This document shows, piece by piece, positions 5,621-50,354 of a stretch of 50,354 nucleotides of DNA; position 1 is the first letter of the stretch, and every line of letters starts with the position of its first letter. The translations under genes were made by a program, and so were the position numbers. The stretch lies in NCBI GenBank assembly GCA_021846285.1, contig JAJZCB010000015.1, positions 1 to 50,354 on the forward strand. The letters are read 5' to 3'. The notes beneath the pieces were generated by a model, which did no database searches, had not been told where the DNA came from, and saw only the letters and a program-made list of their open reading frames with translations. This stretch comes from Bacillota bacterium. GTDB lineage: Bacteria > Bacillota > Bacilli > Alicyclobacillales > SLC66.

Positions 5621-5956
5621 TCATCTGGACCATCCAGAGAGACCGCGATAGTGCTGGGTGTCAGGGTTGTACCAAACCGGGTACGCTCTCACCTCATCCC
5701 ATGGCTCACCATGCGGTCGGTGCCCGGTGTACACCAGGTACACGTAGGTATGCGATCTCAAGGTGCACACTATAACCTTGCCCTGCATTTCTTCCCCCAT
5801 CGGGCCTGTGAATGGGAGCCAACTATAATCGCGGTACACGCGTTCGAGAGGGTGCACGTACACATGCATGATTCGATAATCCCAATCATTTGTATTTATT
5901 GGACAAAATCTCGGATCGTATTCCTCCAATGCCCGAATGATTTCACAACGTCTCAA
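5621..5956 (-). CDS. Hypothetical protein, 111 aa
   Basis: The start at 5956 overlaps the 3' end of the Uma2 gene by 14 bp, which supports expression as part of the same operon. The sequence is rich in Tyr, Trp and Arg (WDYRIMHVYVHPLERVYRDY; TYVYLVYTGHRPHGEPWDEV) with no signal peptide or membrane segment. I do not recognise the family. It may be a small accessory protein of the Uma2/toxin cluster or a remnant. Confidence 0.45.
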   Translation of the reverse strand: MRRCEIIRALEEYDPRFCPINTNDWDYRIMHVYVHPLERVYRDYSWLPFTGPMGEEMQGKVIVCTLRSHTYVYLVYTGHRPHGEPWDEVRAYPVWYNPDTQHYRGLSGWSR

Positions 5957-30893: not shown

Positions 30894-30900
30894 AATCGCT

Positions 30901-31720: not shown

Positions 31721-32698
31721 TCATCCCAGCGACGATTTAACATCACCGACAAGTTTACCAACCATTTCCTCCGAGTATATGGAAAATCCCTTGCCTCCCT
31801 GATGCTTGACTGAATACATGGCCTTATCGGCAGCCTGAATCAAAGTCTCAAAGTCCCTGCCATCCTGAGGAAAGATGCTGACCCCCAAACTGGCCGATAC
31901 CCGAAATTGCCGACTGTCGATGGAGTACTCGACATCAAGGGATCGGCTTAACCGCTGGACAACGTTCGACACCACATTTCCATTGCGAATGATGTCAGTC
32001 AGGACCACGACAAATTCATCACCTCCGACGCGAACCACGACATCCTCCATACGAATGCGTCGTTTCAGCCGCTGCACAATCACGCGGAGAACGGAATCGC
32101 CGCACTCATGACCATACATGTCGTTGACCGTCTTAAACCCATCCAGGTCAATATAAATAAGTGCGAACGCTTCGCCAAATTCCTTCTGCAGACCGACACG
32201 ATACCGTTCCAGAAATAACCGATTCAGCGCGCCCGTCAATGGATCGTGTATGGCCATGCGTTCCAGTTCGATAACATAGGCCAACATATCCGCCGCAAGC
32301 TGCATGGAATGCAACTCCGTTCTATTGAAATCGTAGGGCTCAACATTGGCAGTGCACAGAGTTCCGTAAAGCGTGCCATCCTGGAGTAGAATTGGCACTC
32401 CCATATAAGCGCCGATTCGTTGAGCAGCCAATGACTCGCCTTTCACATGGTTGGCGGTATCTGCGATGACCAGCGACTGAGTCTGGTGCATAAGTTCAAA
32501 ACCTGTGAGTTCTGAGAGACGCAGCACCGTCAGATCATTGGAGTTCTCGTCTTCTTTGTGGAACAGTCTCACCAGTGTAAAGAATCCGTCTTGCATCGTA
32601 ACAATAAAGAATGTGGATGTAGGAATGATGTTGCTCAGTTGACTCAGGCTGTCGCGCAACGATCGTGTAAAATGGCTCCATGGCGCTATTCTCGGCAT
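31721..32698 (-). CDS. GAF-GGDEF diguanylate cyclase
   Basis: 325 residues. GAF-like domain at about 15-145 (IADTANHVKGESL; YMGVPILLQDGTLYGTLCT) and a GGDEF domain at about 148-320. The active site GGDEF is intact (225-229), and RMED at 216-219 is a standard inhibitory I-site five residues before it. HDPLTGALNRLFLERY and IDLDGFKTVNDMYGHECGD are canonical. It should make c-di-GMP from GTP under control of the GAF ligand, with product inhibition. It lies 26 bp after manC and has an AGGAGGTG ribosome site, so it is probably co-expressed with polysaccharide genes. Confidence 0.92.
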   Translation of the reverse strand: MPRIAPWSHFTRSLRDSLSQLSNIIPTSTFFIVTMQDGFFTLVRLFHKEDENSNDLTVLRLSELTGFELMHQTQSLVIADTANHVKGESLAAQRIGAYMGVPILLQDGTLYGTLCTANVEPYDFNRTELHSMQLAADMLAYVIELERMAIHDPLTGALNRLFLERYRVGLQKEFGEAFALIYIDLDGFKTVNDMYGHECGDSVLRVIVQRLKRRIRMEDVVVRVGGDEFVVVLTDIIRNGNVVSNVVQRLSRSLDVEYSIDSRQFRVSASLGVSIFPQDGRDFETLIQAADKAMYSVKHQGGKGFSIYSEEMVGKLVGDVKSSLG

Positions 32699-32724: not shown

Positions 32725-34092
32725 CTATCGCTCAACCACGCCACAACAACACTCCAAAATGTCATCCCACTCCTGGAACCGCCGTATGCAATCTGCTTCC
32801 GACAGATCGGATCCCCGTTGCACTTCAATCGCCACGAGATCTTCCTCAGCCAGAAATGCGTGCCATTGACCGGGGCGTATTCGAATCACATCTCCCGCTG
32901 TCACCATCGCCAGACCGCCATCAAGCGCCAACAGTCCCCGGCCGCGAATGACCGTCCAGACCTCCTCGCGAAACAGATGCTGATGATAGCTCATATTCGC
33001 CCCCGACCGCAAAGTGTTATGCCGTGTCAGAACCTCTGTTCCGTCCGCCAACGCGCAGCGGTCCAAGACGCGATAACTGCCCCAACGGCGTTCCTCAAAC
33101 ATGGGCCGTCCAGCAAACGGCGCCACCAGCCCCTTGATATCTCCTGCATGCTCTTTGTCCGCCACCAGGATGCCATCTGGACTTGCCACCACAATCGTGT
33201 TGCGAAGCCCTGCCGCCACGACCGGAATATTCAACTCGTTAATCACATGGGACTCTTCACAGCGTTCGGAGACGCCGTATCCTATAAAGTCATTTCTCAG
33301 TTCAGGAGCCAACACAGGCCAGGTGCCCATATCCTTCCATGCGCCGTCGTAAGGAGTCACCACGATTGATCGGCTCGATTCAAGCACTTCGTAATCGAAA
33401 CTGCGCTTGGGCATCCGATCAAACTGTTCAACCATGTCCCGATAGGTGCTTGGATATCCCCGTTCGCGCAGAAGGTTGATCAGATAGGACGAGCGAAAGC
33501 AGAACACCCCGCAATTCCAGAGCGCTCCTTCCGCAACCAAACGAGCCGCGCGATCACGATCAGGCTTTTCCGTAAATGAAACGACACGTCGATAGGGAGC
33601 CTGGCTGTCCGGCCGTTCGACGCGGATATAGCCAAACTGACTCGACGGACACAGCGGGCGAACACCGAGAAGAGCCAGATCAGCGCCGGAGTCGACAAGT
33701 GGCCGTTGCAGTTCCAGGATCGCTTGGAAGAAGGACTTGTCTACATACTGATCGACAGGCGCCACGGCCACCACTTCGTCCACCAGAGTCTCCTGCGCCA
33801 GATACAGCGTTGCCAAGGCGATGGCGGGAAACGTGTCCATGCGCTGCGGCTCCACGATCACACTCACATCGCCCAATTGGGAGTAGATAATATCCGTTTG
33901 CGCATGTGACGCACAGACATAAACGTCTTCCAATGCATCCAAGTCCGTGAGTTGCGACCAGACTCGCTCCAACATTGAAACCATGTCACCCTGCTCGTTC
34001 TGCAGCACCCGCAGGAACTGTTTCGATCGCACATCGTTCGACAGAGGCCACAGTCGTTTACCCGATCCACCCGAGAGAAGCACCAGTTTCAC
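32725..34092 (-). CDS. manC: Mannose-1-phosphate guanylyltransferase / phosphomannose isomerase
   Basis: About 455 residues. N-terminal nucleotidyltransferase (LVLLSGGSGKRLWPLSND; VAPVDQYV; FTEKPDRDRA) and a C-terminal type-II phosphomannose isomerase cupin (FEERRWGSYRVLDR; SGANMSYHQHLFREEVWTVI). It makes GDP-mannose, the donor for mannosylated exopolysaccharide. GTG at 34092 is chosen because it overlaps the glycosyltransferase stop as GTGA; the frame opens at 34107. It sits between the GT2-GtrA gene and the diguanylate cyclase gene. Confidence 0.88.
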   Translation of the reverse strand: MKLVLLSGGSGKRLWPLSNDVRSKQFLRVLQNEQGDMVSMLERVWSQLTDLDALEDVYVCASHAQTDIIYSQLGDVSVIVEPQRMDTFPAIALATLYLAQETLVDEVVAVAPVDQYVDKSFFQAILELQRPLVDSGADLALLGVRPLCPSSQFGYIRVERPDSQAPYRRVVSFTEKPDRDRAARLVAEGALWNCGVFCFRSSYLINLLRERGYPSTYRDMVEQFDRMPKRSFDYEVLESSRSIVVTPYDGAWKDMGTWPVLAPELRNDFIGYGVSERCEESHVINELNIPVVAAGLRNTIVVASPDGILVADKEHAGDIKGLVAPFAGRPMFEERRWGSYRVLDRCALADGTEVLTRHNTLRSGANMSYHQHLFREEVWTVIRGRGLLALDGGLAMVTAGDVIRIRPGQWHAFLAEEDLVAIEVQRGSDLSEADCIRRFQEWDDILECCCGVVER

Positions 34093-35273
34093 TCTTCTAC
34101 CACCCACTTTCTATCTGTTAACGCGCTTCGCATTGATCGTATTGCACCTAGAGAATCACTGTCAGCGGAACTGGAAGCACAGGACAGCGCGACCTCAATC
34201 TCTCGATACTCCGTTTTCCACGTCCAAACATTATTGACGTAGAAATTCCAGATCATCGCTACAAAAATTCCTATTCCGTTCGCAATGAAATAATCCACAT
34301 GCATCCCATACGCGAGCATCGAGAGCACCATGGTGTCGATGCCAATTCCGGTTAGAGAGGTGGCCACATATTTGCCGAATCGTTTTAGCCCCGGAGTGGA
34401 TCTGGAATCATGCCAAGTCAACCTGTCATTCAAAGCGAAGTTCGACACCATCGCAACAGCGCCAGCCAGAACGCCCGCCTGCCAGAAATCCATGTGTAGT
34501 TTTACCAGACCAACGTAGACCATCATATTAACAAGGACACCTGAAATTCCAACAGCAGCAAAAACATACTTCCGCCGATCTTCGGAACTGGACACGACCA
34601 ATTTGAAAATGTGCTTGAGATAGTTCCATTGTTCTCGAAGCGACATGTTTGACGACCCGGCTATCCTGGGCTGAAAACGGTACGGAATCTCCACAATCCG
34701 AGAATAATTTCCATGTACAAGGATTTCAATTAATACTTTCCACCCGATGGGCTGCAACCGCACGTTTTCCACTACACTCCGCCGCAAGAGAAAGAACCCA
34801 CTGGTCGGATCTGTCACGCTGCGTACTCGCTTTAGTGTCGCCTGGCCAATAACTCGAGCGACCCAGGAAATCAACTTCCGAGACGGAGATAATCCCCCGT
34901 CGTCACCACCCGGCACAAAGCGACTGGGGATAACTATGTCGCAACCGATTTCCGCCGCGGCCATCATAGCCTTCAAAAGTTCCGGCGGATGCTGCATATC
35001 AGAGTCCATGACTGCAATGAGTTCCCCACGGGCAAGTTCGAATCCACGCACAACCGCAGTTCCCAGACTTCGCTCATGCTCACGATGCTCATACCGTACC
35101 CAGGGAAACTCCCCACAAAGATGCTCAAGTGACTCCACAGACTCTTTCGAGGTGCTGTCATCCACAAAGATCAGTTCGAACTCGAGCGGATGAAGAACTT
35201 TAATCAACGTTTCTGCGACGACGGCAGGATTGTTCCCCTCGTTAAACGTTGGCACAACAATACTGATTTTCAT
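34089..35273 (-). CDS. GT2 glycosyltransferase (dolichol-phosphate-mannose-synthase type) fused to GtrA
   Basis: About 394 residues. GT2 domain: ISIVVPTFNEGNN, FVDDSTSKES, DxD in VMDSDMQHPPELL, and DPTSGFFLLRRSVV. A GtrA-like four-helix membrane domain follows (about 235-365; FAAVGISGVLVNMMVYVG, WNFYVNNVWTWK). Such fusions load mannose or another sugar from GDP-sugar onto a polyprenyl phosphate and present it across the membrane. ManC directly downstream would supply GDP-mannose. ATG at 35273 has GAGGTGATC upstream. The product may feed the GT-C enzyme at 39986. Confidence 0.87.
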   Translation of the reverse strand: MKISIVVPTFNEGNNPAVVAETLIKVLHPLEFELIFVDDSTSKESVESLEHLCGEFPWVRYEHREHERSLGTAVVRGFELARGELIAVMDSDMQHPPELLKAMMAAAEIGCDIVIPSRFVPGGDDGGLSPSRKLISWVARVIGQATLKRVRSVTDPTSGFFLLRRSVVENVRLQPIGWKVLIEILVHGNYSRIVEIPYRFQPRIAGSSNMSLREQWNYLKHIFKLVVSSSEDRRKYVFAAVGISGVLVNMMVYVGLVKLHMDFWQAGVLAGAVAMVSNFALNDRLTWHDSRSTPGLKRFGKYVATSLTGIGIDTMVLSMLAYGMHVDYFIANGIGIFVAMIWNFYVNNVWTWKTEYREIEVALSCASSSADSDSLGAIRSMRSALTDRKWVVEE

Positions 35274-35417
35274 ACTCAGATCACCTCGTAACATCAGTAG
35301 TCGCGATGGCTTTAAATACCAGTTGCTTCAATCGCGCATCTTCTGAATACAAAGCTAGATCCTTGGTCACAAGGAGTCAATGAGTGGAAAATCGGTTGTT
35401 AAAGGCGCGTAATCGAT

Positions 35418-37258: not shown

Positions 37259-39577
37259 TTAACCTACGTTAACCTGCACGGAAGCCGTGGAAACTCCCTG
37301 TGAACTTACAATGCGAATGGTCGCTGGCCCACTTAGAACACCCACGCCTGGTGCATTCTTCCCATCCGGCACTAAGAAAGTAACCTGAGTCGCAGACCAT
37401 CCCGTGATCTTTACTCCATAAACATTCCCAGGAGCCCCCCAACTGGTTCCTCCTTGCATAAGTTGAACATATCCGGCTGATGATCCGAATCCTGTTCCTG
37501 CAACACTGACAGACTCTCCAGGTGTAATCGTCGTAGGCGAGATAGTGGATATGATCGCCCCATTCGCGGAGACGGTGATCGACTGCGGTTGTGATGAAGC
37601 ACCCGTGGCATTGACGACCTGAAGCGTAGCGGTACCGCTCGGCAGCGGTTCGCCGGATCCGTTCATTCCGTTTGGCACCTGGAATCGTATCCGGTCATTT
37701 GTCCAGGAAGAGAAGTTGATGTGGTACCAGTTCCCAGGAGCCCCCCAGTTTACTCCATTGTCTGCTATGTGGAGGTAGGAACCATTCTTGTTCGAACCAA
37801 AATTCACTCCTTTCAAAGTAACCCATTCGCCAGGATACAGATTCGATGCGGACACCTGTTCAAGAGTAACGGGGGGCGCCGATGACACCTGCACATTGGC
37901 CGCCGATGAAATTGTCTGATCAGCCGTGACGACCGACAGGGTAGCCGAACGGCCAGCGCTTAGCGCACTGTAGAAATGACCATTGGGCGCCGAAGTATTA
38001 TTCGGTACGACAAATGTTATCTTACTGGGACTCCAGGAAAGTGTATCAACAGCATTGAAGTTTCCCGGCAGCCCCCAGGAAACCGTGGCCGAGGTCGAAG
38101 TGCCCCAAACGAGCGGGCCTTGAGACAGATGAATGTATCCCTTCCGTTTCCCGAAGCCCGCCCCCTGAATAGTCACTGTTTCACCAGCATATAACGACTG
38201 TGGAACGTGAATTAACGCTGGCAGAGACAATGGAATTCCATTGGATGGAATACTTGGTTTCTGATAAGCTGTCATGCCCACTACCGACTGCACGCTGGCC
38301 GAGACCTCGACCATAGAATCGGAAGGAACAACAACCGTGTTCGACCCATTGTACACGTATGATTGAGTTGACCCCGTGGTGTTAATGAAGAACGCTTTAC
38401 CAACTGAGCCCTGCACCTCTGCTGCAAAACCGTTAGCGCCGGTCCATGCAGTCAATGAGGAGCCAGAACCGACAGCCTGCATAAATGACGCGACAGCCTG
38501 ACCGGATGGATACAGTTGATTCATGGCCAACGAACCCAGCGCGCCATTTGCCACCAGACCAAACGTACCGTTGTTTCCAGGTGCATCTGCACCGCCGTCA
38601 AACGACCACACAAAGACCTTGTGCGCCCCTGCCGCTCTTAAGGCGACCAGCGATTCGACCATCGCCGCTCCGTACGTGGAAGTCAGCGATAGACTACCAG
38701 GCGTTGACTCGGGGTTCCATTCTGTAACCCAAACTGTTATACGGGATGCCACCGCGGGTGGCACGTTGGCGGCAATCTGTTGATCTGCCGTGGCCATGAG
38801 CTTCTCGACGGCGGACGGCAAACCCTGAAGCAGTGTGGATGGACTCACAGAAGAACTGAATGGATACGCATGCACCGACAGAAAATTGATATACGGCGCA
38901 TCAAGTCGAAGAACGTCTTGATCCCACTCCAGTGCGTGCGCAGAGAGACCATCCTCAAAACTCACGCCTATCTTGACAGCGGGCAGGACAGTGTGAATCG
39001 CTTGCGCTATAACCGCTGCATTTTTCGCGTACGCAAGAGCGGACTTGTTCTTGTGAAGGTTGTGAGCAAAATCCCACTGTCCGTATTCCTCGGAGCCGAT
39101 TACTATGGCTGACACGGGTATATGGTGTTGCAAAATATAATTGGCAAGCTGCGTTGCATCCTGTGCTGTGCCCCCACCTGTCCATCCAGGCGCCTGATCG
39201 TAATTGTATATATATAGACCCGTCTGCCCAGTGGCTGTCAATAGTTTACCCCAGGCATTCAGGCTCTCTGGACTACTGCTCGGATTGACTGGATTCTGCG
39301 GGTTGGCAACCGCCATGTTCGTCTGCCAATTCCAGTTAACGGAGTTTGGAAACTGTTGCATACCAACGCCGAGTGATTCCAGCGCCGATGTGGCGCCGAC
39401 CGTGGTAATCTGCGAATCCCATGTAAACGTGTTGACCCCGAAATCGGATCTGGAAACGGGTACGCCTGGCACATTAGCTTGACCAAATGCCTGCGCTGCA
39501 GGTGTGAAACACAATAAGGCGATGAGACTACCGACCATACTTGTCGCCAGAGTGGTCGACAATAAGCTCTTTTGCAC
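37259..39577 (-). CDS. Secreted glycoside-hydrolase-like protein with three IPT/TIG domains, riboswitch-controlled
   Basis: About 772 residues from GTG at 39577 (AGGAGGACACACA upstream). Signal peptide ending near AAQAFGQA. The catalytic-like domain (about 35-330) has VIGSEEYGQW (Glu163) and ITVWVTEWNPES (Glu286), the two acids of clan-A glycosidases, then a beta-domain. Three IPT/TIG Ig-like repeats follow (about 450-560, 565-660, 665-772), each with GxxVTxxGxxFG and W(S/T)xxxIxFxVP-type motifs; WGAPGN recurs. TIG domains would hold it on a carbohydrate or cell surface. A c-di-GMP-type riboswitch with terminator precedes it. Substrate unknown. Confidence 0.77.
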   Translation of the reverse strand: MQKSLLSTTLATSMVGSLIALLCFTPAAQAFGQANVPGVPVSRSDFGVNTFTWDSQITTVGATSALESLGVGMQQFPNSVNWNWQTNMAVANPQNPVNPSSSPESLNAWGKLLTATGQTGLYIYNYDQAPGWTGGGTAQDATQLANYILQHHIPVSAIVIGSEEYGQWDFAHNLHKNKSALAYAKNAAVIAQAIHTVLPAVKIGVSFEDGLSAHALEWDQDVLRLDAPYINFLSVHAYPFSSSVSPSTLLQGLPSAVEKLMATADQQIAANVPPAVASRITVWVTEWNPESTPGSLSLTSTYGAAMVESLVALRAAGAHKVFVWSFDGGADAPGNNGTFGLVANGALGSLAMNQLYPSGQAVASFMQAVGSGSSLTAWTGANGFAAEVQGSVGKAFFINTTGSTQSYVYNGSNTVVVPSDSMVEVSASVQSVVGMTAYQKPSIPSNGIPLSLPALIHVPQSLYAGETVTIQGAGFGKRKGYIHLSQGPLVWGTSTSATVSWGLPGNFNAVDTLSWSPSKITFVVPNNTSAPNGHFYSALSAGRSATLSVVTADQTISSAANVQVSSAPPVTLEQVSASNLYPGEWVTLKGVNFGSNKNGSYLHIADNGVNWGAPGNWYHINFSSWTNDRIRFQVPNGMNGSGEPLPSGTATLQVVNATGASSQPQSITVSANGAIISTISPTTITPGESVSVAGTGFGSSAGYVQLMQGGTSWGAPGNVYGVKITGWSATQVTFLVPDGKNAPGVGVLSGPATIRIVSSQGVSTASVQVNVG

Positions 39578-39598
39578 TGTGTGTCCTCCTCTTGGGCA

Positions 39599-39629
39599 CA
39601 AAAAATACGGCAGAAATGTTCCTGCCGCG
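39599..39629 (-). terminator. Riboswitch expression-platform terminator
   Basis: On the minus strand CGGCAG (39627-39622) pairs with CTGCCG (39613-39608) around GAACATTT, followed by TATTTTTT. It ends about 10 bases before the Shine-Dalgarno. The first arm, extended to CGCGGCAG (39629-39622), can instead pair with CTGCCGCG (39656-39649) at the end of the aptamer, giving a mutually exclusive antiterminator. Confidence 0.8.
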
Positions 39630-39910: not shown

Positions 39911-39985
39911 AGTATCTTTGAATGTTGTGGAAAAACGTTCTATCGTATACATTCTTGCTATGGAACATAATTGGGAGGTATTGCT

Positions 39986-41653
39986 TTGTCCACAGTATGG
40001 AGTCGATCAGCAATACCCGTTAACGCGGCAATCGAAACGAATGAAACCAGAGAAGTGGCTAGTTACCCAAAGTGGGAGGGTCGCATACTCGCGCTTTTTG
40101 TACTCGCGCTTTCCTTGTTTGTCGGATATCAACTTGTCTTTCACTATCACATCGTCTATGGGGACGCGATGAGCCGTGCGCTGTCTGGGCTTTACACTGT
40201 GTTTCGTCCCAGTTTCCACTTGGCGGCTGTTGGGTTCCTATGGAATCCACTCCCGAGCCTGTTATCCATCCCGCTCGCTCTATTTCGCAGCCTTTGGCCA
40301 CCAATAACTGAATACGGATTTGCCGCCAATATCATTTCCTCCTGTTTCGCTGCAGTCGGCGTTTACCACTTGAACCGCATCCTGTGGCGCTTTGGCCTCG
40401 GACGCACGGCTCGTGTGCTCTGGTGTCTGTTGTATATCGCCAATCCTATGCTTCTTCTATATGGAGGCAACGGGATGACTGACGGAATGATGGTTGCGAT
40501 CTGCGTGGCGTGTGCGGATAACGTAATCGGCTACCTTCAGACTGAGGAATTGAATCGTTTGATCATAGCTGCAGTCTGGCTCGCGGCCGGTTTCATGGTG
40601 CGATACGAGAGTGTTCCGATCGGCGCAGCAATGGGTGTAGGCCTAGCGTTCTCAGTCTATCGCACAAACCGGAATTGGCGCAAAGCAGAGGCAATGCTTG
40701 TCACATTTTGGTTTCCCGTCGTCGCTGCCGGGATCACTTGGATCCTGCTCAACTGGATAATTATGCATAATCCTCTGTATTTCGCCTCATCCCGCTATAG
40801 CAACACGGTGCAGCTTACTTCCGGGTCATACAACACTCCGGCCGTCATGGCCGCCAAGCATCACCTGAGTGTAGCACTCTCTCAAGTCATTCACTTTTCC
40901 ATTCTTTTCTGGCCCTATATTCCCGCTGCGCTTGTTGTGCTTGCACTGCAGTTTCGCAGAAAGGAACATTCTGTTGGATTGCCAATCTTGTTGGGTTCAC
41001 TTGGCGCGCCCCTGCTGCAACTCATCATGCTATACGGTCACCGTTCGGCAGACTGGGCGCGGTTCTTCATCTATTACATCCCGTTCGGGTTCATGCTCTG
41101 CGGTTATCTTATGTCCGCCATTCCCCTGAAGTGGCGGCAATGGAGCGCCGCCGGCGCATGCGGGCTGCTCCTGTCGGCGGACGTCGTCACGTTCTCAACA
41201 CTCCAGAATCCCGTATGGGGGCACGGTGACCACTGGGTGGTCAGCAATGTTTCCCATAACATCGAATTTGGGAATTCGACAAAACAAGCAGTCCAAGGTG
41301 TTGGTATTTGGCCAACCATCATGGCGGGAAAAGAAGTTGCGAATTATATGGCCGCTCATCCAAAGATGCGGGTGTTGATATCCAGCTTCACCTCGTATGC
41401 AGTGATCCCATTGATTCACAATCCAGCGCAAATCGTGTTTACAGCCGACCCTAATTTCAAAGCCGTACTCGAAAATCCTCGTGGACGCGTCAGTGCGATT
41501 CTGGCGCCTCCAGTCAATAACTTAACCAAAGCGTCCGACGCCATCACCAGAACTTATCCATCTCTTTGGTCAGGAGGTATTCCCTGGACCAAATTCATTA
41601 AGCAGTTTCCTGGCGGCGATCGTCTCTATGCCGTTCTCCCAACCGCGCCGTGA
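39986..41653 (+). CDS. GT-C membrane glycosyltransferase, GT39/ArnT-like
   Basis: About 555 residues with 11-12 membrane helices. After the first helix comes VYGDAMSRALSGLY, carrying the acidic residue that GT-C enzymes use in the first extracytoplasmic loop. Later WNPLPSLLSIPLALF, YGGNGMTDGMMVAI and RYESVPIGAAMG follow the GT39 style. These enzymes transfer sugar from polyprenyl-phosphate on the outer face of the membrane. The GT2-GtrA protein could make the donor. Start: TTG at 39986, with GGGAGG about eight bases before; another TTG at 39971 precedes that site. Own promoter and terminator. Confidence 0.75.
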   Translation: MSTVWSRSAIPVNAAIETNETREVASYPKWEGRILALFVLALSLFVGYQLVFHYHIVYGDAMSRALSGLYTVFRPSFHLAAVGFLWNPLPSLLSIPLALFRSLWPPITEYGFAANIISSCFAAVGVYHLNRILWRFGLGRTARVLWCLLYIANPMLLLYGGNGMTDGMMVAICVACADNVIGYLQTEELNRLIIAAVWLAAGFMVRYESVPIGAAMGVGLAFSVYRTNRNWRKAEAMLVTFWFPVVAAGITWILLNWIIMHNPLYFASSRYSNTVQLTSGSYNTPAVMAAKHHLSVALSQVIHFSILFWPYIPAALVVLALQFRRKEHSVGLPILLGSLGAPLLQLIMLYGHRSADWARFFIYYIPFGFMLCGYLMSAIPLKWRQWSAAGACGLLLSADVVTFSTLQNPVWGHGDHWVVSNVSHNIEFGNSTKQAVQGVGIWPTIMAGKEVANYMAAHPKMRVLISSFTSYAVIPLIHNPAQIVFTADPNFKAVLENPRGRVSAILAPPVNNLTKASDAITRTYPSLWSGGIPWTKFIKQFPGGDRLYAVLPTAP

Positions 41654-42338: not shown

Positions 42339-44582
42339 CTATACTCCGACATTTTTAGCGTTCTTATCCAATATTAGATGATCGTTCGCCTTGACATTGG
42401 AGAGTCCATGCACTGTTTTCTCCCAGTACGAGGGTTTGAAAATCAACTGAACCAGCGCCTTATAAGAAGCGATCGACATAAACACCCAATAGATCGGGCT
42501 GAGAAGCGCCCACTTGGCGAGACTCCATCTTCCCGACTTCAAAACGCCAACGATATTTGCGTATGTAAAAGCGACGTTCCCTAAGAAAAGGCTTAAAGAG
42601 CCCAAGTAAAATATCCAGCCTGAGAACACGGCCATGAGAAACATGGGCCGAAACAGATACCACGAGAGCGTGAGCCCCCACAGAATGGGATTTAAGAGAA
42701 ACTGGAGAGCCGTTCCACCGATCGTCGCCTGAAATCCGAAGAAACCGATTGGCTTGAGTTCTTTCCATAGCCTTATAGGGTGACGCATATGCACCAGCCA
42801 AGTTTGCAAGTACCCCTTGACCCAGCGAGACCGCTGACGCATCCAGTTGACGAAGTCAGAATTGGCCTCTTCATAGGTGACAGAGTTCATGACGGCGGTA
42901 TGGTACCCTGTCTTATGCAATCTGACACCCAGATCCGCATCTTCTGTGACGTTAAAGGGGTCCCAGGCCCCCAACTCACGCAGTATCTCAGTTCGAAAGT
43001 GGTTGGAACTGCCGCCGAGTGGGATCGGCATCCGCATCGTGAAAAGCGCCGGCAGCATCAGTTCAAACCAGTTGGCGTACTCTGCGGTAAACCAGCGTGT
43101 CTGGATGTTTTGGTTCTCATTGTAATACGATAGCTTCGCCTGCACACAGGCCAGTTGATCATTTTCGTTTTGCCGAAATACGGTGATCGCCTTGAGCAAT
43201 TGATCTGGTTCCGGGATATCCTCCGCATCAAAAATGACAAGATACTCTCCACGCGCTTTGGTCAGGCCATAGTTGCAAGCCTTCGGCTTGGTTCGCGGTT
43301 CAGATGCGGGCACGATCACCAACTCGATGTAGTTTGGCAGACCGGCGTCGCGCGCCGCTGCGATCGTTTCCGTATCGTCCTCTTCAAGCAGAAACTTCAC
43401 ATCCAAGCGGTCCTTTGGATACTGCAAGCGCTTGATCGCCTCGGTTAAGGTGGGCAGAACGGCCGCTTCCCGGTAAAGTGGCACAAGAACAGTATATTCC
43501 GGCAACGAAGTGAGAGGGATGTTGTCGATATCTGCCTTAGTGATGATGAATTCGGCATCGCTGCCCGCCGACTTTTGCATCGCCCACAGTCTAAATATAC
43601 TGGTAACGCCGTAAAGTACTTCTACCAGTGCAGCCAACACGGTTCCAGTAACCAATGAGTTTAAGACAAAACCACCGGTTAATGCCAGGGCAATTCCAAT
43701 CAACCAGAACGCCTGCAGCCGTGATATTTGTTTGAAGGCACTATCTTCTGGACTCCGATTCAATAGCGACAGTCGGCTCTCTTCCTCGTGCTCCTTGCGA
43801 AATCGTAGATTCAGCGCCATCATGACATCACGGTAACCTGTGACAAATACCCGCACCCGGCGATTGGTCCGGGATTGCAACTGCACTAACGCCTCTTGAT
43901 CGTCTACGTCAACCATGGCAACCGTTATACTGTAATCATCCAGCGCCAGTGGAACGATCAGATGGCGAAACCAGAATCGCTCGTCAACGAGATTCCATGC
44001 CGCAAACAGAGCTGGATCGCAAAAAAGGGCTGCGGTGTTGTTTCCATTTAGGAGGTCTATCAGGGGCAGACCTCGTTGCATCGCAAAAGCCTCCGCAATA
44101 TCCCAGTGCGATGCGGATCCCCTATTCATCAAAACGGATCCAATCTTGATCTTTGTGTCTGCACTCCTCTGTTCCTGAAGGGCCGCCGAGAGTTCAGCGG
44201 GGGATATGCGTCCGCTGGCAATCAGGTATGCGCCAAGTCGCTCATCCGGCAATCCTGATAAGAGGCCATACACGCGATCCTGCGCATGAACCAAATCCTC
44301 TAGCTCCACCCTGCATAAAATGACCTTGCCTTCCACAAATTCCGTCACAGAGAGGGCAGAGGGGCTCTCCGTGTCCACCGCAGCGACAAAGATAAACTCA
44401 CCTGTCTGTTGAAAGGGGAGAACTTGCCCGTTGCGCGACATTTCTGCAGAGATCAGATGAGCCACCTTGAGTTCGACGGGGTCATACCAAACGGACTGCC
44501 CATTCAACTTGTATGGTCGGAGCGAGATAAATAATTTTCCGTCCAGCTCCGCTATACCGCGTTCGTCGGTATCCACACTCAT
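42339..44582 (-). CDS. Processive GT2 glycosyltransferase with N-terminal MshEN-like c-di-GMP domain
   Basis: 747 residues. The N-terminal 100-250 region is a GspE/MshE N-domain: ERLGAYLIASGRISPAEL plus LQEQ (about 114-138), then a second half, KIGSVLMNRGSASHWDIAEA with QRGLPLIDLL. The RLG...GxI...L...Q spacing is that of c-di-GMP-binding MshEN motifs. Membrane helices follow (about 290-335), then the GT2 catalytic core with FDAEDIPEPDQL, TEDADLGVRLHKTGY and QRSRWVKGYLQTW (Q/RxxRW), and C-terminal helices. Cellulose-synthase-like. NfrB of E. coli combines the same domains in a different order and is c-di-GMP-activated. Coupled by ATGA overlap to the upstream coiled-coil gene. Confidence 0.85.
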   Translation of the reverse strand: MSVDTDERGIAELDGKLFISLRPYKLNGQSVWYDPVELKVAHLISAEMSRNGQVLPFQQTGEFIFVAAVDTESPSALSVTEFVEGKVILCRVELEDLVHAQDRVYGLLSGLPDERLGAYLIASGRISPAELSAALQEQRSADTKIKIGSVLMNRGSASHWDIAEAFAMQRGLPLIDLLNGNNTAALFCDPALFAAWNLVDERFWFRHLIVPLALDDYSITVAMVDVDDQEALVQLQSRTNRRVRVFVTGYRDVMMALNLRFRKEHEEESRLSLLNRSPEDSAFKQISRLQAFWLIGIALALTGGFVLNSLVTGTVLAALVEVLYGVTSIFRLWAMQKSAGSDAEFIITKADIDNIPLTSLPEYTVLVPLYREAAVLPTLTEAIKRLQYPKDRLDVKFLLEEDDTETIAAARDAGLPNYIELVIVPASEPRTKPKACNYGLTKARGEYLVIFDAEDIPEPDQLLKAITVFRQNENDQLACVQAKLSYYNENQNIQTRWFTAEYANWFELMLPALFTMRMPIPLGGSSNHFRTEILRELGAWDPFNVTEDADLGVRLHKTGYHTAVMNSVTYEEANSDFVNWMRQRSRWVKGYLQTWLVHMRHPIRLWKELKPIGFFGFQATIGGTALQFLLNPILWGLTLSWYLFRPMFLMAVFSGWIFYLGSLSLFLGNVAFTYANIVGVLKSGRWSLAKWALLSPIYWVFMSIASYKALVQLIFKPSYWEKTVHGLSNVKANDHLILDKNAKNVGV

Positions 44583-45064
44583 GCCGATACTCCCCTCGGT
44601 GATACATGCACCAACTCATGATCCACCGCTATATCGCGCACGAGTGAATGAGCACGCAACCAACCGATAAACTTATTTCGATCATGAGCTTGACCGTCAA
44701 CGCGATAAAACCCATCGCGAAACACCCGAAACCTGACTGCCAGATGCGGTGAACCCTCTAAAGCATCAATCAATCCCGTAATGTGACCAATCGAATCCGT
44801 TGGTCCGACGATGACCGTTATCGATTCTCCCGCACCCGACATACTCACTGACTGAATGTGCTGACGGCGCATGGCCGCTACAGTGATGGCCAACTCTTCT
44901 CTTTGCGACTCTGCCTTCGCCAGTCGAAGTGTAAGTTCACTCACCTGCTGTTCCGCATCAGCCAGTTTCTGCTCGCAAATCCTCATTTTCTCATCAACAG
45001 AAGATTTCGCATACCCAAAAAATTGTCTTTCGAAACGATTTCTACGCACTTTGCTTCCTCCCAT
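44579..45064 (-). CDS. Coiled-coil protein with small C-terminal alpha/beta domain
   Basis: 161 residues. The opening RRNRFERQFFGYAKSSVDEK resembles the lipid-binding start of DivIVA/GpsB proteins. A coiled coil of about 50 residues follows (KLADAEQQVSELTLRLAKAE). The C-terminal 80 residues (ITVIVGPTDSIGHITGLIDA; VRFRVFRDGFYRVDG) suggest a ferredoxin-like fold. Family not recognised. The 4-bp overlap with the MshEN glycosyltransferase gene suggests that the products act together, perhaps localising the synthase. It starts 15 bp after the sorted-protein gene ends. Confidence 0.6.
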   Translation of the reverse strand: MGGSKVRRNRFERQFFGYAKSSVDEKMRICEQKLADAEQQVSELTLRLAKAESQREELAITVAAMRRQHIQSVSMSGAGESITVIVGPTDSIGHITGLIDALEGSPHLAVRFRVFRDGFYRVDGQAHDRNKFIGWLRAHSLVRDIAVDHELVHVSPRGVSA

Positions 45065-45079
45065 TCAGTCCGCACAGAT

Positions 45080-45637
45080 TTAATGTGGAACATTCACGCG
45101 ACGTCTGCGCACCACTTGCCACACGCCCAGCATCCCAAGCGGCAGAGCCGCCGCCAGCGGCGCCTCTGGCAATGTATCCACAAGCGGGCCAACGGTTTCC
45201 TGATAATATTTGGAGTTCGGAGCCGGAGATGTGTATGCCATGGACACGTTGACACTCACGGCGCGCCCGAAATTTGGCAACGGAATCTTGTACCTCACCG
45301 GATGCATCGAATACAGGACGCCTGTCTCCATAATCGGTGGAGTGTCCGAAGTGCCGATCGAGCCAATGGGAAAAACGGGCGACGCCACGGTAAACTCAAA
45401 CCGCAGAGTCTGAGGAGCTGTCAGTCCTTCTCCCTTGAGGACAGGAAAGTCCACGATAACGTATCGGGCACCCTTGTGTACGACAACCTTGCGAATCGCC
45501 GACGTCGCGTGTGCCGCGGTTGGAACGTTTGTCAGCAACGGTGGGTTGTTCGGAGAAGCTGCGAAGGTGGTCACCGTCATCGTCAGAGAAGCGAAGACCA
45601 ACCCGCCAAAGAGCAATGCTTTTTTCCCACCTGTCAT
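45080..45637 (-). CDS. Secreted protein with C-terminal LPEAP exosortase-type sorting signal
   Basis: 185 residues. Signal peptide (KKALLFGGLVFASLTMTVTT, FAA). Beta-rich middle: METGVLYSMHPVRYKIPLPN, VSMAYTSPAPNSKYYQETVG. C-terminal tripartite signal: DTLPEAPLAAALPLGMLGVW, a hydrophobic helix, and RRRR. This matches PEP-CTERM logic (Pro-Glu-x-Pro motif, helix, basic end). Same architecture and about half-identical sequence to the protein at 47642-48133. It lies between the exosortase gene and the coiled-coil/GT2 genes, same strand. Confidence 0.78.
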   Translation of the reverse strand: MTGGKKALLFGGLVFASLTMTVTTFAASPNNPPLLTNVPTAAHATSAIRKVVVHKGARYVIVDFPVLKGEGLTAPQTLRFEFTVASPVFPIGSIGTSDTPPIMETGVLYSMHPVRYKIPLPNFGRAVSVNVSMAYTSPAPNSKYYQETVGPLVDTLPEAPLAAALPLGMLGVWQVVRRRRVNVPH

Positions 45638-45742
45638 GTCTGTTGCCCCCTTGTGTCAATACCGGCATCCGCAGAGCTGAGCTGGCCCAATGATACATCC
45701 GCGTTCTGCAGATGCAGCGCGGAGTACTTCGCCCATCATCTC

Positions 45743-47425
45743 TCAGGCGTTCAGCGCTTTCGATGAGACTGGCGCCGACCCCTTGGGAGCGATAAAAATA
45801 CTCCGTGCCATCCCATGCACCAGGGAGAAGTAGTTTTCCAGATGTATCGTCTGATCCGGGCTCAGCAAACCCGCAGTCTGCAGCGGCGATCCCGGTGTGG
45901 CCAGAAGCTCGTTCAATGCGGTTGGCATCTGAGCTACAAGTGGATTGCTTGGGTGGATAAAGTACGCCACCGGCGTTGCCGTCTCGGAACGGATGAACGC
46001 CACGCGCCCATGATACCGGACTGAAAATGAGTATACCGTATCCAAATATAGATTGCGTGGACTGCCAATGGCTGCGGGCGCCAACAGCACCGTGTAAACG
46101 GTCGCGTTGATGCCGGAGGCAATCGCCAAAGGACGTTGATCAATGATCTGCGCTCCGTGAAACAGCAGACAATTATGTTCCGTATAGCCTTGCAATGAAA
46201 TGGGTTGATACGTCCACCACCATTCCGACAGCGCCTGATCGCCATAGATCGAACGGTACGTGACCGCCGTGCTGACGGCCCCCGGCCCCAAAATCGACGC
46301 TGCGTCATAGTTCCCGATCGGGCTCACCGTCCATCCCACCACTTTCGGCATCAGTTTGGGCAACGCGTTTGACGTCACCGGAATCGGCGCGTGATCCGTT
46401 CCCGGCCCCCCCTGATACAGCGGCCATAGCAACACCGTTAGCGCTCCGACCGATAAAATGGACATCGACACCCGAATCCGACCCGGCGTTCGAATCATCT
46501 GCCCCTTCTTGAATTTGCGATTCTCAAGACCCAACCAGTGGGAAAACTTCACGACGGCGGCCACCATCGCCATAAACAGAAGGATACCAAGCACCGGATG
46601 AAGAACGCCTAGCGAAAAATTGGGCCCCAGCATATGAATGGAAAAAATGATCACGGCCAAACGCAGCCAATTGGCCAGCAGCGCCAGGCACGCTGCAAGC
46701 AAAATGGACATGCTCTTCTTCCACAGCGGTCCCATGAAGGTCACCAGCACGATGGGCAGCAGGATAGCCACCGCCAGAAGGCTGTCCGCTCCGCTGCAGA
46801 CCGACGTTACATAGACCGTCACGGACTGGCGGTGATACAGAACCCGATAGGTGCCCACGGGACTGCTGATGACGAGCCACGAAAACTTATGCGCCAGTTC
46901 CGCCACAAAGCGATTTGCAAAATTCTCTAAAATGGGATTGGTGAAACTGACAATGGTCGAATAGAGAGGCGGCCAACTCAGCCATAGATACATAAGCGGC
47001 CGAATCAGATACTTCGTAACGCCGACCCCAAACACGAGCCACGCCAACCCCAGCGCCCACAGTGGCCAGATGAGCAGACCGACGCTTTGGCCAACAAAGT
47101 AATACTGCCACACGGTGATGCCGGCCACCAGCAAGGAACCCGCCACTAACAGCATCGGAATTCCCATGATTCCGTTAAGTTCAGCATCGTCATTGTAGCT
47201 CAGCGCCCTCTGTAGCTGCCAACCCGCCCAGATAAACGCGAATACTGGAATCCACACCAGATAAGCGTACGGGGTGTCTGCCAGGGCCCCCGACCACAGA
47301 GGAGTGGCATAGGGAATCATAGGAAGCGAACTGCCGATCGCCCATGCGTAGATCCAGGCGAGCGGTCCATGACGCCTGCGCGTGCTCGTTCTTCTGCTCC
47401 GTTTGACCGGAATCTCCACAGCCAT
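45743..47425 (-). CDS. Exosortase with C-terminal EpsI-like domain
   Basis: About 560 residues. Eight or more membrane helices with the exosortase catalytic set: Cys210 in VTSVCSGADSLLAVAILL, Arg255 in LANWLRLAVIIFSI, and His276 in GVLHPVLGILLF. After the last helix (about 320-340) comes an extracytoplasmic domain of about 220 residues with EWWWTYQPISL and HNCLLFHGAQII, reminiscent of EpsI, the usual partner of exosortases. ATG at 47425 is chosen for GGGAGGG upstream (frame opens at 47449). It would cleave the LPE(V/A)P proteins encoded on both sides. Membrane enzyme, active site on the outer face. Confidence 0.85.
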   Translation of the reverse strand: MAVEIPVKRSRRTSTRRRHGPLAWIYAWAIGSSLPMIPYATPLWSGALADTPYAYLVWIPVFAFIWAGWQLQRALSYNDDAELNGIMGIPMLLVAGSLLVAGITVWQYYFVGQSVGLLIWPLWALGLAWLVFGVGVTKYLIRPLMYLWLSWPPLYSTIVSFTNPILENFANRFVAELAHKFSWLVISSPVGTYRVLYHRQSVTVYVTSVCSGADSLLAVAILLPIVLVTFMGPLWKKSMSILLAACLALLANWLRLAVIIFSIHMLGPNFSLGVLHPVLGILLFMAMVAAVVKFSHWLGLENRKFKKGQMIRTPGRIRVSMSILSVGALTVLLWPLYQGGPGTDHAPIPVTSNALPKLMPKVVGWTVSPIGNYDAASILGPGAVSTAVTYRSIYGDQALSEWWWTYQPISLQGYTEHNCLLFHGAQIIDQRPLAIASGINATVYTVLLAPAAIGSPRNLYLDTVYSFSVRYHGRVAFIRSETATPVAYFIHPSNPLVAQMPTALNELLATPGSPLQTAGLLSPDQTIHLENYFSLVHGMARSIFIAPKGSAPVSSKALNA

Positions 47426-47492
47426 AAAAACCCTCCCGCATTTCTGCACACATCATACCAAGCGATTCACTGAAACGAGTTAAATTTTTCGC

Positions 47493-47515
47493 TTGGCAAC
47501 ATCAAGAAAATTTCA
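47493..47515 (-). promoter_or_regulatory. Conserved upstream element, exosortase gene copy
   Basis: A 23-bp segment containing TTGGCAACAT (plus strand) matches 48272-48294 at 20 of 23 positions. It lies about 70 bp upstream of the exosortase start. On the minus strand it reads as TTGATG, 17 bp, TAACTC, a weak promoter-like pair. Confidence 0.5.
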
Positions 47516-47579
47516 AGTGATGTGAGAGACGCTACGCACGCCGCAAAAACCTACAAACTATTAAACATAATCTCTATAG

Positions 47580-47615
47580 AAGCGCGAGCGGCTGAGGATT
47601 CGACCGCTCGCGCTT
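47580..47615. terminator. Terminator hairpin after the LPEVP protein gene
   Basis: AAGCGCGAGCGG (47580-47591) and CCGCTCGCGCTT (47604-47615) form a perfect 12-bp stem with a 12-base loop, 26 bp after the stop at 47642. The U-run on the minus strand is poor (CTATAG). The stem is strong enough to stop or protect transcripts. Confidence 0.65.
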
Positions 47616-47641
47616 CCCGTCCTCACTACAACAGAAGTGCC

Positions 47642-48133
47642 TCAACGCACGGCGTTCAATCGACGCCTGCGCATCACGTACCATACACCCAACATTCCCA
47701 AAGGCAGAGCCGCCGCCAACGGAACTTCAGGCAGGGTATCCAACAGTGGACCAACTGTTTCCGCATAATAGTTGGAGTTCGGGCCTGGGGACGTGTAGCT
47801 CATCGACACATACACGTTCTGAGCGTGGCCGTAGTTCGGAACCGGAATCTTGTAGCTTATCGCCGGACTGGTTGAATACAACACACCCGTCTCGTAAATC
47901 GGAGCTGTGGTCGATGGCGTTCCAGGCGGTCCGGTCGTAAAGTCATATTGCAGCGTTGGTGGAGGAGTCAACGACACCCCCTGAAGGGTCGGGAAGTTTA
48001 GGATCAAGTATGTTTGACCCGCTGGAATCGTAACTTCCTGGGTTGTGCTTGAGGCCGCAAAGGCAGGCACCGAAACGGCCATTGACCCTGCCACCAAACC
48101 GGCGGTGACCAAGACTTGTTTCCATCCCCTCAT
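47642..48133 (-). CDS. Secreted protein with C-terminal LPEVP exosortase-type sorting signal
   Basis: 163 residues. Signal peptide (VLVTAGLVAGSMAVSVPAFA). Middle region: IYETGVLYSTSPAISYKIPV, PNYGHAQNVYVSMSYTSPGP, NYYAETVGPLLDT. The ending is LPEVPLAAALPLGMLGVW then YVMRRRR. It is a paralog of the protein at 45080-45637; the C-terminal signal and the YTSPxPNS block are almost the same. AAAGGAGGTG precedes ATG, a very strong ribosome site, so it may be abundant. Likely a surface-anchored or released beta-sandwich protein. Family not recognised. Confidence 0.8.
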   Translation of the reverse strand: MRGWKQVLVTAGLVAGSMAVSVPAFAASSTTQEVTIPAGQTYLILNFPTLQGVSLTPPPTLQYDFTTGPPGTPSTTAPIYETGVLYSTSPAISYKIPVPNYGHAQNVYVSMSYTSPGPNSNYYAETVGPLLDTLPEVPLAAALPLGMLGVWYVMRRRRLNAVR

Positions 48134-48271
48134 TGATTCACCTCCTTTCTGCTATGGAGTGAGGAGCCACCCTGAGACGTGAACTCCTGTACATCGTAAG
48201 GAACATCGCGTGTTCACAAACTAACTATTATGGTATCAGTGTTTTCCGCTTGAGTGCTTTAAGTTTCGGGT

Positions 48272-48294
48272 TTGGCAACATGAAGAAAACTTTA
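48272..48294 (-). promoter_or_regulatory. Conserved upstream element, LPEVP gene copy
   Basis: The second copy of the 23-bp element (TTGGCAACAT on the plus strand), about 140 bp upstream of the LPEVP protein start. On the minus strand it reads TTCATG, 17 bp, TAAAGC. It flanks an ACCCGAAAC half-site at 48271-48263. Confidence 0.5.
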
Positions 48295-48296
48295 GA

Positions 48297-48325
48297 TTGA
48301 CCCGAAATGCATCATTCAGAATAAT
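48297..48325 (+). promoter_or_regulatory. Candidate sigma-A promoter for the MPEVP protein gene
   Basis: TTGACC (48297-48302) and AATAAT (48320-48325) are 17 bp apart. The motif ACCCGAAATGC overlaps the -35 (48300-48310) and recurs at 48442-48452 ahead of TATAGT. The remaining sequence up to the start at 48513 shows no gene. Confidence 0.5.
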
Positions 48326-48512
48326 ACACGCGCAAGATTGTGGTGACCTCGCGCAAGTTCTGCAATATATTGATTTGATTAAGGTTGAGTGACTGCGACA
48401 TAAAGAATTTTTAGTCTGGTAAAAGCCTGCTATGTATGGTTACCCGAAATGCCCTGTGCTATAGTTGCCTCGCGCGGAAATGGAGAGTCCTTATAGGGGG
48501 AGTGAAAATTCA

Positions 48513-49202
48513 ATGATACAACGGAGGAATCGCCGACATACAGTGACCGTGGCTGCCGGAGGAGCGCTGGCGCTATGGATGGTGAGCAGCCTCGCCCTCG
48601 GCGGCACAGCATTTGCTTCATCGGGAGGGTCGGGAGGGTCGGGCGACAACGGTGGGAACGGAGAAGGAACCCTGTATATGTACTCAACGCTGGCGAACGC
48701 GGAGAACGGTTCCGCCCCCGTCTCTGCGTTGACAGAAGGCCAAACCTACTATTTCGTTCTTGCGAGTCCAGGCGGGAAGACGCAGGAAAATAACTTGAAA
48801 AACGTACCTCCCGCGCTGACGTTCAACTTCTACAATCCGGCCCACAATTTTCAGGGTAACCCGAAGAAGGCTGAGAAGTACGCCAAAGACATTCGATTTT
48901 CGGTTCTCAGCGGACAACTCAGCAATAAACATCCGTTCGTGTATCCGGTGACACTGCCGCCCAATGTCTCGCCAGGCGACTATACGATCGGCACCTTCGG
49001 CGTCAATGCGCAGCCGCAATCGAACGGCAATAGCGGCGAGGATGAATTCTTCTTCTCTACGGATCCTTCGATCGACGGCACAGTAACCGTTCAACCAGCG
49101 ACGCAGGGAAACATGCCGGAAGTTCCGTTTGCGGGCCTCTTGCCGGTCGCTCTGGCCGCAATCGGCGGCGTGGTTTGGTATGCACGCCGCCGGGCGCGCT
49201 GA
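48513..49202 (+). CDS. Secreted protein with C-terminal MPEVP exosortase-type sorting signal
   Basis: About 229 residues. Signal peptide (VTVAAGGALALWMVSSLALG, then AFA). A Gly/Ser/Asn-rich linker (GGSGGSGDNGGNGEG) follows, then a beta-rich domain (LTEGQTYYFVLASPGGKTQE; LTFNFYNPAHNFQG; FVYPVTLPPNVSPGDYTIGT). The ending NMPEVPFAGLLPVALAAIGG, WYARRRAR is the same type of tripartite signal as in the two minus-strand proteins, but the rest is unrelated. ATG at 48513 is chosen for GGGGGAGTG upstream; the frame opens at 48465. It lies between the two exosortase genes, on the opposite strand. Confidence 0.78.
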   Translation: MIQRRNRRHTVTVAAGGALALWMVSSLALGGTAFASSGGSGGSGDNGGNGEGTLYMYSTLANAENGSAPVSALTEGQTYYFVLASPGGKTQENNLKNVPPALTFNFYNPAHNFQGNPKKAEKYAKDIRFSVLSGQLSNKHPFVYPVTLPPNVSPGDYTIGTFGVNAQPQSNGNSGEDEFFFSTDPSIDGTVTVQPATQGNMPEVPFAGLLPVALAAIGGVVWYARRRAR

Positions 49203-49319
49203 TCCAAAACGCTCGCTTCGCGATTGAGATGAACACATGGCGGCAAAGGGTGCGTCTCGCAGTCAGGATGCACGGCCCGCTGCGAAGGTTAATGTGATAA
49301 TGTGAGACAATATCAAACT

Positions 49320-49347
49320 AGGCCGTTTCCAGACAGGGAAGCGGCCT
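49320..49347. terminator. Shared terminator between MPEVP gene and second exosortase
   Basis: AGGCCG...CGGCCT with an inner TTCC/GGGAA pairing, between the two converging stops (49202 and 49357). T-rich on one side only (TTCGTCCT). Confidence 0.6.
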
Positions 49348-49356
49348 TCGTCCTGC

Positions 49357-50354
49357 TCAGGCGTTCGTGGCGGGCGACGTTGAACCCGGCGCTGTGTTCC
49401 CTACAGTCTTCATGCTCAGACTGGCAAAGGTGCGCACGAAGAAGTCAAACGCCCGCAGATTGCGCCGTTCAGACGCGGTGAGCGCTGACAACGCGGACAG
49501 CGCTTGCGGCGCCGAACCACTCGCGCCATATTGTGACTTAAGCGCCAACGGCAGCACCGACGCCAGCGGGCTCGTGGCCTGCACCCCGTAGCGGACGGGC
49601 GTCATGAACTCCGCGCGGATGTACGCGTCGCGTCCTTTGTATTTCACGGCGTAGATGTACGCCACGTCTTCATATGCGTCACGGGAGTTGCTGCCCGCCG
49701 CGTTCGGCGGGAGTAAAACGGCGAAAGCTTGCGCCGTGACTCCCGGGCGAACGATAAAATTCTGGCGCCCCAAGACGCTGTAGCCGTGAAAGAGAAGGCA
49801 GTTATTAACACCGTAACTCTGCAGGGCACTGAGATTATACGTCCACCATTCCTCAGCCATCATATAGCGGCCCCGCCTATCAGTGTAGGCAAATGCCCTG
49901 CCATACGAACCGGGGCCCAGCACGCTGGCCTCGTCAAACGTGCCCAACACGCTGCGGTTGTATCCTGTCATCCGCGGCATCAGCAGTGAGAGGTTATTTG
50001 TATTGACGGAAATCGGCGTTCCGAACGATCCGGCGGCCCAGTTGTAGATGGGCCAGAGCAGCACAGTCAGCGCCAGCGCGCCCGCCATTGCCATGCCAAC
50101 GCGAATCCAGCCTGGAACAGGCAGGGATTTGGACGATTGAACCATCTTGCCGCGCACACCGATCACGTTGCCGACCAAGGCAAGAATACCAAGGGTGACG
50201 ATGAATAGAATCAGGCCCAGCACCGGATGCAGCGTGCCAAAGGTGAAATTGCTGCCCACCAGATGACCGGAGATCACCAGAATGATCAAACGCAGGAGAT
50301 TCATGACGACGGACATGACCGCCGCCAGACCGATAAGGATCAACTTCCTTACAA
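49357..50354 (-). CDS. Second exosortase with EpsI-like domain, 5' end outside window
   Basis: The frame is open to the window edge; 332 residues are visible and the catalytic Cys region lies outside. It has the Arg in SVVMNLLRLIILVISGHLVG and His in GTLHPVLGLILF, the last helix, then a C-terminal domain with EEWWTYNLSALQSYGVNNCL and LFHG. It aligns through its length with the exosortase at 45743-47425, including the conserved Asn-Cys-Leu-Leu-Phe-His-Gly. The tail is Ala/Ser-rich. It may serve the same or a different subset of PEVP proteins. The TTG at 50343 is not the true start, as codons continue beyond it. Confidence 0.82.
   Translation of the reverse strand, partial: VRKLILIGLAAVMSVVMNLLRLIILVISGHLVGSNFTFGTLHPVLGLILFIVTLGILALVGNVIGVRGKMVQSSKSLPVPGWIRVGMAMAGALALTVLLWPIYNWAAGSFGTPISVNTNNLSLLMPRMTGYNRSVLGTFDEASVLGPGSYGRAFAYTDRRGRYMMAEEWWTYNLSALQSYGVNNCLLFHGYSVLGRQNFIVRPGVTAQAFAVLLPPNAAGSNSRDAYEDVAYIYAVKYKGRDAYIRAEFMTPVRYGVQATSPLASVLPLALKSQYGASGSAPQALSALSALTASERRNLRAFDFFVRTFASLSMKTVGNTAPGSTSPATNA

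Follow-up and report, generated by a model that had tools for sequence, protein, structure and literature searches.

Exosortase-dependent protein sorting was first described for organisms that possess an outer membrane. The window considered here is the whole of contig C97 (JAJZCB010000015.1; 50,354 nucleotides, position 50354 being the contig end) from a bacterium of the phylum Bacillota, order Alicyclobacillales. Near its end, two paralogous exosortase genes adjoin three genes encoding secreted proteins with a common C-terminal tail, called here the PEVP tail. The PEP-CTERM/EpsH (XrtA) system shares with this locus a multi-spanning membrane enzyme with Cys, Arg and His residues, a tripartite C-terminal signal with the P-E pair, a link to exopolysaccharide, and the combination of one enzyme with several unrelated targets (PMC1569441). 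However, the signal there is PEP, whereas here it is P-E-x-P-[YFL]-A-x-x-[LI]-P, and the host here is a monoderm (single-membrane) member of Bacillota; PEP-CTERM was listed as absent from Firmicutes by Haft et al. 2006 (PMC1569441). In a comparison of bioleaching organisms including Sulfobacillus, the PEP-CTERM exosortase system was reported for Leptospirillum only (PMC5418355), and our literature search found no paper pairing "exosortase" with "Alicyclobacillus". The XrtG system, too, is formed by a Bacillota exosortase beside a GT2 glycosyltransferase. However, XrtG has about 200 amino acids, whereas the enzyme considered here has about 570 and a C-terminal domain; the GT2 protein is different, with an N-terminal MshEN domain, and there are clear PEVP targets. 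The archaeosortase ArtA, acting on PGF-CTERM proteins, belongs to the same superfamily and combines proteolysis with transfer, as is proposed here by analogy, but it is archaeal, transfers its substrates to lipid and has a different motif (PMC7157517). Finally, the class A-E sortases with their LPXTG signals are similar in the tripartite C-terminal signal, the surface attachment and the Cys/His/Arg chemistry, whereas the enzyme here is not homologous to them.

The genes P0004-P0001-P0003-P0007-P0006 follow each other in this order on the minus strand within the last 11 kb of the contig. Beyond P0004 there are P0005 on the plus strand and, convergent with it, the 3' part of the second exosortase gene on the minus strand, cut by the contig end. 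The main features are as follows.

45743..47449, minus strand: exosortase 1, P0001 (568 amino acids; PF09721, alignment A1, AlphaFold model)
49357..50352, minus strand: exosortase 2, P0002, 3' part only (Arg and His present; the part with Cys is outside the window)
45080..45637, minus strand: PEVP-type target 1, P0003 (185 amino acids; signal peptide, beta domain, DTLPEAPLAAALP, helix, RRRR; tail model, alignments A2 and A8)
47642..48133, minus strand: PEVP-type target 2, P0004 (163 amino acids; 59% identity to target 1; DTLPEVPLAAALP, helix, RRRR)
48465..49202, plus strand: PEVP-type target 3, P0005 (245 amino acids; signal peptide, Gly-rich start, MPEVPFAGLLP, helix, RRRAR)
44579..45064, minus strand: DivIVA-like protein P0007 (161 amino acids; coiled N-terminus and small C-terminal domain; DivIVA E 0.018, below the cut-off)
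42339..44582, minus strand: MshEN and processive GT2 glycan synthase, P0006 (747 amino acids; TED and QRSRW motifs)

The arrangement described in the original prediction was confirmed: two exosortase genes adjoin those of three secreted proteins whose ends combine LPEAP, LPEVP or MPEVP with a helix and RRR(R).

P0001 matches both PF09721 (69.5 bits, cut-off 25.7) and TIGR04178 (41.9 bits, cut-off 23). The catalytic-type residues Cys218, Arg263 and His284 lie within conserved blocks of the transmembrane core (alignment A1). Among the 21 aligned relatives Arg and His do not vary, and Cys hardly does. In the AlphaFold model (predicted local distance difference test, pLDDT, 75.6) the membrane core, which is of the EpsH type, is made of helices; it is followed by another membrane-spanning helix and by a soluble C-terminal domain of about 200 residues. 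The latter has no Pfam match at E<=1, to EpsI (DUF3485) or any other family; in the predicted model it resembles the Mog1/PsbP/LpqN fold with a borderline Z of about 8. Foldseek found no match in the PDB at E<=0.001 for either P0001 or P0004, and no solved exosortase was among the matches listed. The incomplete P0002 scores 24.9 bits with PF09721, just below the cut-off of 25.7. It had been noted that Cys is visible in one enzyme only, and indeed it is seen in P0001 alone. However, P0002 is truncated and has not lost this residue: its full-length counterpart in the sister genome G053 (L026:8598-10352), with 95% identity, contains CSGSD, and both exosortases are complete in the matching region of that genome.

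The tail consensus was derived from 17 aligned proteins encoded next to exosortases and reads P-E-[VAIT]-[PR]-[YLF]-A-x-x-[LIF]-P, followed by a helix and a basic cluster. The tail model has 35 positions, and its signature is P-E-[VAI]-P-[YFL]-A-x-x-[LI]-P, again with the helix and the basic cluster. In a wider set of 35 tails the first P and E are invariant, and the later P, A and P are nearly so. The window tails MPEVPFAG..., LPEVPLAA... and LPEAPLAA..., each continued by a helix and RRRAR or RRRR, are far beyond chance: the E-values per one genome are 2.5e-17 for P0003, 3.3e-17 for P0004 and 3.1e-11 for P0005, with a model that includes these three rows themselves. The wider tail model gives E 5.3e-14 for P0005. 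The predicted structure of P0004 has six strands, a linker and a C-terminal helix (mean pLDDT 58.6). A scan of the whole genome with the C-terminal model, as had been proposed, yielded a fourth PEVP protein unlinked to the others (G000:C130:25574-25675, E 1.3e-8). The tailed proteins contain CBM6, GH16, ferritin-like, Big_2, NHL, TAT-signal and other domains, or none known. Since they are otherwise unrelated, the PEVP tail does not characterize a single protein family but is a signal, as would be expected if it serves in sorting.

The distribution of enzyme and tail was analysed in 59 genomes of the order, with the tail threshold E<=1e-4, and phylum-wide in 398 Bacillota genomes. The exosortase occurs in 16 genomes of the order. 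All 16 have the tail, as do 2 of the 43 exosortase-negative genomes, G044 and G054 (Fisher p 1.4e-12; 5.6e-11 when the genus of the window is left out; these values should be read with care, as the species are related). The next-best match among the negatives has E 0.0046, and its alignment begins past the PE motif. Genera g4, g10, g15 and g18 contain both species with enzyme and signal and species with neither. G055, from the same genus as G054, has neither tail nor exosortase. Tailed proteins unlinked to an exosortase are found in G038, G041, G044, G049 and G054, several in each, and one in the genome of the window. Class-wide, the exosortase model matches members of the order only, plus one weak match. 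In the phylum sample, matches covering the PE motif were observed in only four genomes, all of them among those with an exosortase-family protein (p 5.8e-6, or 1.1e-4 without the window's own genome), and the three that lie outside the order have exosortases of the window's type (E from 1e-62 to 1e-138). Weak matches in G481, G691 and G758 were discounted, as they cover only the helix and the basic part. Hence the signal follows this exosortase clade outside the order too, as had been expected, and the pairing of enzyme and tail is real. The statement in the original prediction that Gram-positive bacteria have few exosortases, often without obvious targets, is only partly right: exosortase-family proteins (TIGR04178) are present in 21 of the 398 genomes; some of these are XrtG and some adjoin PEP-like tails.

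The two genes are also close on the chromosome. In nearly every intact locus the gap between the exosortase and the nearest PEVP gene does not exceed 217 bp, and often the genes overlap by 4-14 bp. This was observed in the window and in G053, G049, G052, G051, G041, G038, G027, G008, G031, G019, G020, G018, G047, G734 and G774. In G052 (second copy), G037 and G572 the gene is cut by contig ends. The exception among the uncut loci is G050, where the tails are encoded on other contigs.

In our opinion, the exosortases are likely to process the PEVP-tailed proteins as their substrates. The targets would be exported by Sec via the N-terminal signal peptide, and the C-terminal PEVP signal would stall them in the membrane. 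The multi-helix exosortase, with Cys as the nucleophile assisted by Arg and His, would then recognize P-E-x-P-[YFL]-A on the outer side of the membrane, cut at this site and pass the cleaved protein to an acceptor. Since the glycan synthase P0006 is linked to the exosortase, a glycan acceptor is suggested, and it would probably come from the product of this adjacent GT2 synthase, which may be controlled by cyclic di-GMP (c-di-GMP). The odds of such coupling to a polysaccharide seem to us slightly below even. If the reaction resembles those of sortase and ArtA (PMC7157517), its product may be an attached surface protein, and the PEVP proteins would end up in, and may build, a surface or matrix layer.

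Several observations weigh against this scheme. No exosortase was found by PF09721 or by the specific model in G044 and G054, which have 9 and 14 tail matches at E<=1, the majority being strong (L114, L117, L119, L123-L128, L198). These are metagenome-assembled genomes (MAGs), 91% and 88% complete, and the exosortase may be on a missing contig. Signals in genomes lacking the enzyme had been named in the original prediction as evidence against it, and these two genomes in part provide such evidence. Exosortase neighbours supplied the sequences for the tail model, which makes the rule that exosortase-positive genomes have the tail circular to some extent; the converse rule, the distal matches and the matches outside the order are free of this circularity. 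In one neighbour protein (L028) LPEAP is replaced by LPFAP. Finally, since a full-length MshEN-GT2 synthase is missing from five exosortase-positive genomes (G018, G020, G031, G037 and G047), the polysaccharide partner is not fixed.

One possibility is that the PEVP tail is only a membrane anchor that is never cut, and the exosortase is co-inherited with it through a shared polysaccharide locus. A stop-transfer helix with basic residues would indeed anchor a protein alone, and the MAGs with tails and no detected exosortase agree with this explanation. However, the P-E-x-P-x-A-x-x-x-P pattern conserved on non-homologous proteins is needless for a plain anchor, and the strict co-occurrence of the enzyme with tails on unlinked proteins is left unexplained. 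We consider an uncut anchor improbable.

Even less likely is that the system is a known one, either XrtG with Firmicu-CTERM or ordinary PEP-CTERM with XrtA. The superfamily is the same (PF09721, TIGR04178), the tail is tripartite, and P0001 has a weak match to the XrtA model TIGR03109. However, this match scores 47.3 bits with the cut-off at 208, and with all named Xrt models P0001 stays far below the cut-offs. There is no match of P0001 to the XrtG model TIGR03110 (cut-off 102.75 bits), and P0006 scores 47.6 bits with TIGR03111 (cut-off 363.95). In the positive control, a true XrtG of G531, TIGR03110 gives 112.3 bits, and the TIGR03111 and TIGR03112 partners are present. No curated sorting-signal model passes the cut-off on the window tails. 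The nearest is MYXO-CTERM (TIGR03382/TIGR03901) on P0003, with 15.3 bits against 15.85; it covers only the helix-RRR part, and the invariant Cys of MYXO-CTERM is absent from the aligned signature motifs of the tails. On 24 wider targets the matches to sorting models are weak by their listed E-values, cut-offs not being listed for most members. For PEP-CTERM (PF07589, TIGR02595) there is no Pfam match at E<=0.01 and none among the best 25 of the 26 NCBIfam matches at E<=1; Firmicu-CTERM is absent from the NCBIfam matches listed for these targets. P0001 belongs to the exosortase superfamily but fits none of the Xrt types named so far and clearly differs from XrtG, and the pairing of this enzyme with its label has no name in the databases searched.

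Lastly, it is highly improbable that the LPEVP-type tails are substrates of a class sortase or of some other protease: the motif resembles LPXTG, five of the wider tails weakly match the LPXTG model TIGR01167 (best E 0.011; no match on the window targets), and some relatives do have sortases, but the sortase family PF04203 was not found in the window's own genome (G000) or in eight other tail-carrying genomes, which makes a class sortase an unlikely processor, and the single sortase of G054 adjoins a protein with a different tail (SPVTGIP...).

Among other Bacillota, the proteins at L183:4785-8675, L190:2013-5915 and L186:3645-4061, encoded just upstream of XrtG-type exosortases, end with PVPALGY or PVPVLGY, a helix and lysines, and are candidate XrtG targets. 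Further exosortases adjoin proteins ending with IPEFP... and IPEPG..., that is, PEF- and PEP-like tails (L188:5657-7828, L187:7157-9550).

A conserved module accompanies the exosortase and consists of the MshEN glycan synthase, the PMT-like glycosyltransferase P0008 and the DivIVA-like protein P0007. The TED and QRSRW motifs are a signature of processive glycan synthases, and MshEN is a c-di-GMP-binding type of domain. P0006 scores 61.7 bits with PF05157 (MshEN; cut-off 23.1) and has the RLGxxLxxxG...L...L..Q pattern, RLGAYLIASGRISPAELSAALQEQ, from which c-di-GMP binding is predicted. Full-length homologues of P0006 (>=50% identity) are present in exactly 11 genomes of the order, all exosortase-positive, and a P0007-like protein is kept beside the glycan synthase in relatives. 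The module recurs outside the order around the exosortase of G734, with the synthase, P0007-like and P0008-like proteins, a GtrA-type transferase and a TIG-domain protein. In the window the following genes lie farther from the exosortases.

39971..41653, plus strand: GT-C/PMT_2-like membrane glycosyltransferase P0008 (560 amino acids; PF13231 21.3 bits, below the cut-off)
37259..39601, minus strand: secreted glycosidase-like protein with TIG domains (family scan)
34089..35294, minus strand: polyprenyl-phosphate sugar transferase type, GT2 with GtrA/DPMS transmembrane domain (PF00535 97.8 bits, PF04138 88.6 bits)
32725..34107, minus strand: mannose-1-phosphate guanylyltransferase/mannose-6-phosphate isomerase type (PF00483 86.5 bits, PF01050 38.5 bits)
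31721..32698, minus strand: GAF-GGDEF diguanylate cyclase (PF00990 139.3 bits)

Judging by its domains, the mannose-1-phosphate guanylyltransferase-type gene probably supplies GDP-mannose, and the GAF-GGDEF protein may be a source of c-di-GMP. Polysaccharide loci accompany the exosortase, although the locus differs between genomes. In G018, G020 and G047 (L038, L039, L040) a diverged exosortase and its PEVP target adjoin a glycosyltransferase of PelF-like type (DUF3492) and a protein with weak similarity to PelG; the PelF and PelG families were scanned in G020 and G047, and G018 was assigned by gene order. The GGDEF gene (31721-32698) and a response regulator gene (30901-31602) adjoin that of a 1673-amino-acid protein (25896-30917) combining a kinase-like domain with AAA_16, GAF, HisKA and HATPase. 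By eye only, a TnpB/OrfB-like open reading frame (ORF) was seen at 15253-16428, a transposase-like ORF at 3892-4806, and two Uma2-like ORFs at 5943-6476 and 14646-15167.

A profile scan of the genome contigs with exosortase alignment A4 gave eight loci. A tree including other Bacillota exosortases had long branches and was unusable, and it was rebuilt without them. In the rebuilt tree clade a has support 93/99 and clade b 31/67, which supports an old paralogue split in the two-exosortase genomes on one side only. The two paralogues might have separate sets of targets. Pairing of clade a with DTLPEAPLAAxLPxGM tails is suggestive and is not claimed here: those tails come mostly from orthologues within a single target family, the single-type exosortase of G774 has a similar LPEAPLAAALP tail beside it, and the support for clade b is weak. 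In the sister genome G053 a broken third exosortase copy adjoins the glycan synthase (L026:17482-18041), and no remnant of it was found at the corresponding place in the window. Assembly breaks occur in or near exosortase genes at window position 50354, the end of L029, the start of L199 and the ends of L181 and L182, perhaps due to the paralogous copies.

A broader proposal, which we put forward only tentatively, is that the enzyme clade and the PEVP signal may constitute a separate exosortase sorting class replacing class sortases in some single-membrane acidophilic Bacillota, with two paralogues of different target preference and attachment to a c-di-GMP-controlled exopolysaccharide. Several of the source MAGs appear to come from mine-drainage-like communities, judging by their relatives and names. 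A matched enzyme-signal pair is present in monoderm bacteria, in several genomes without a detectable sortase and beside a glycan synthase. The PEVP motif can be used to annotate surface proteins in these Bacillota, and the system is a compact one in which the identity of the exosortase acceptor, a question of long standing, can be addressed with no outer membrane interfering.

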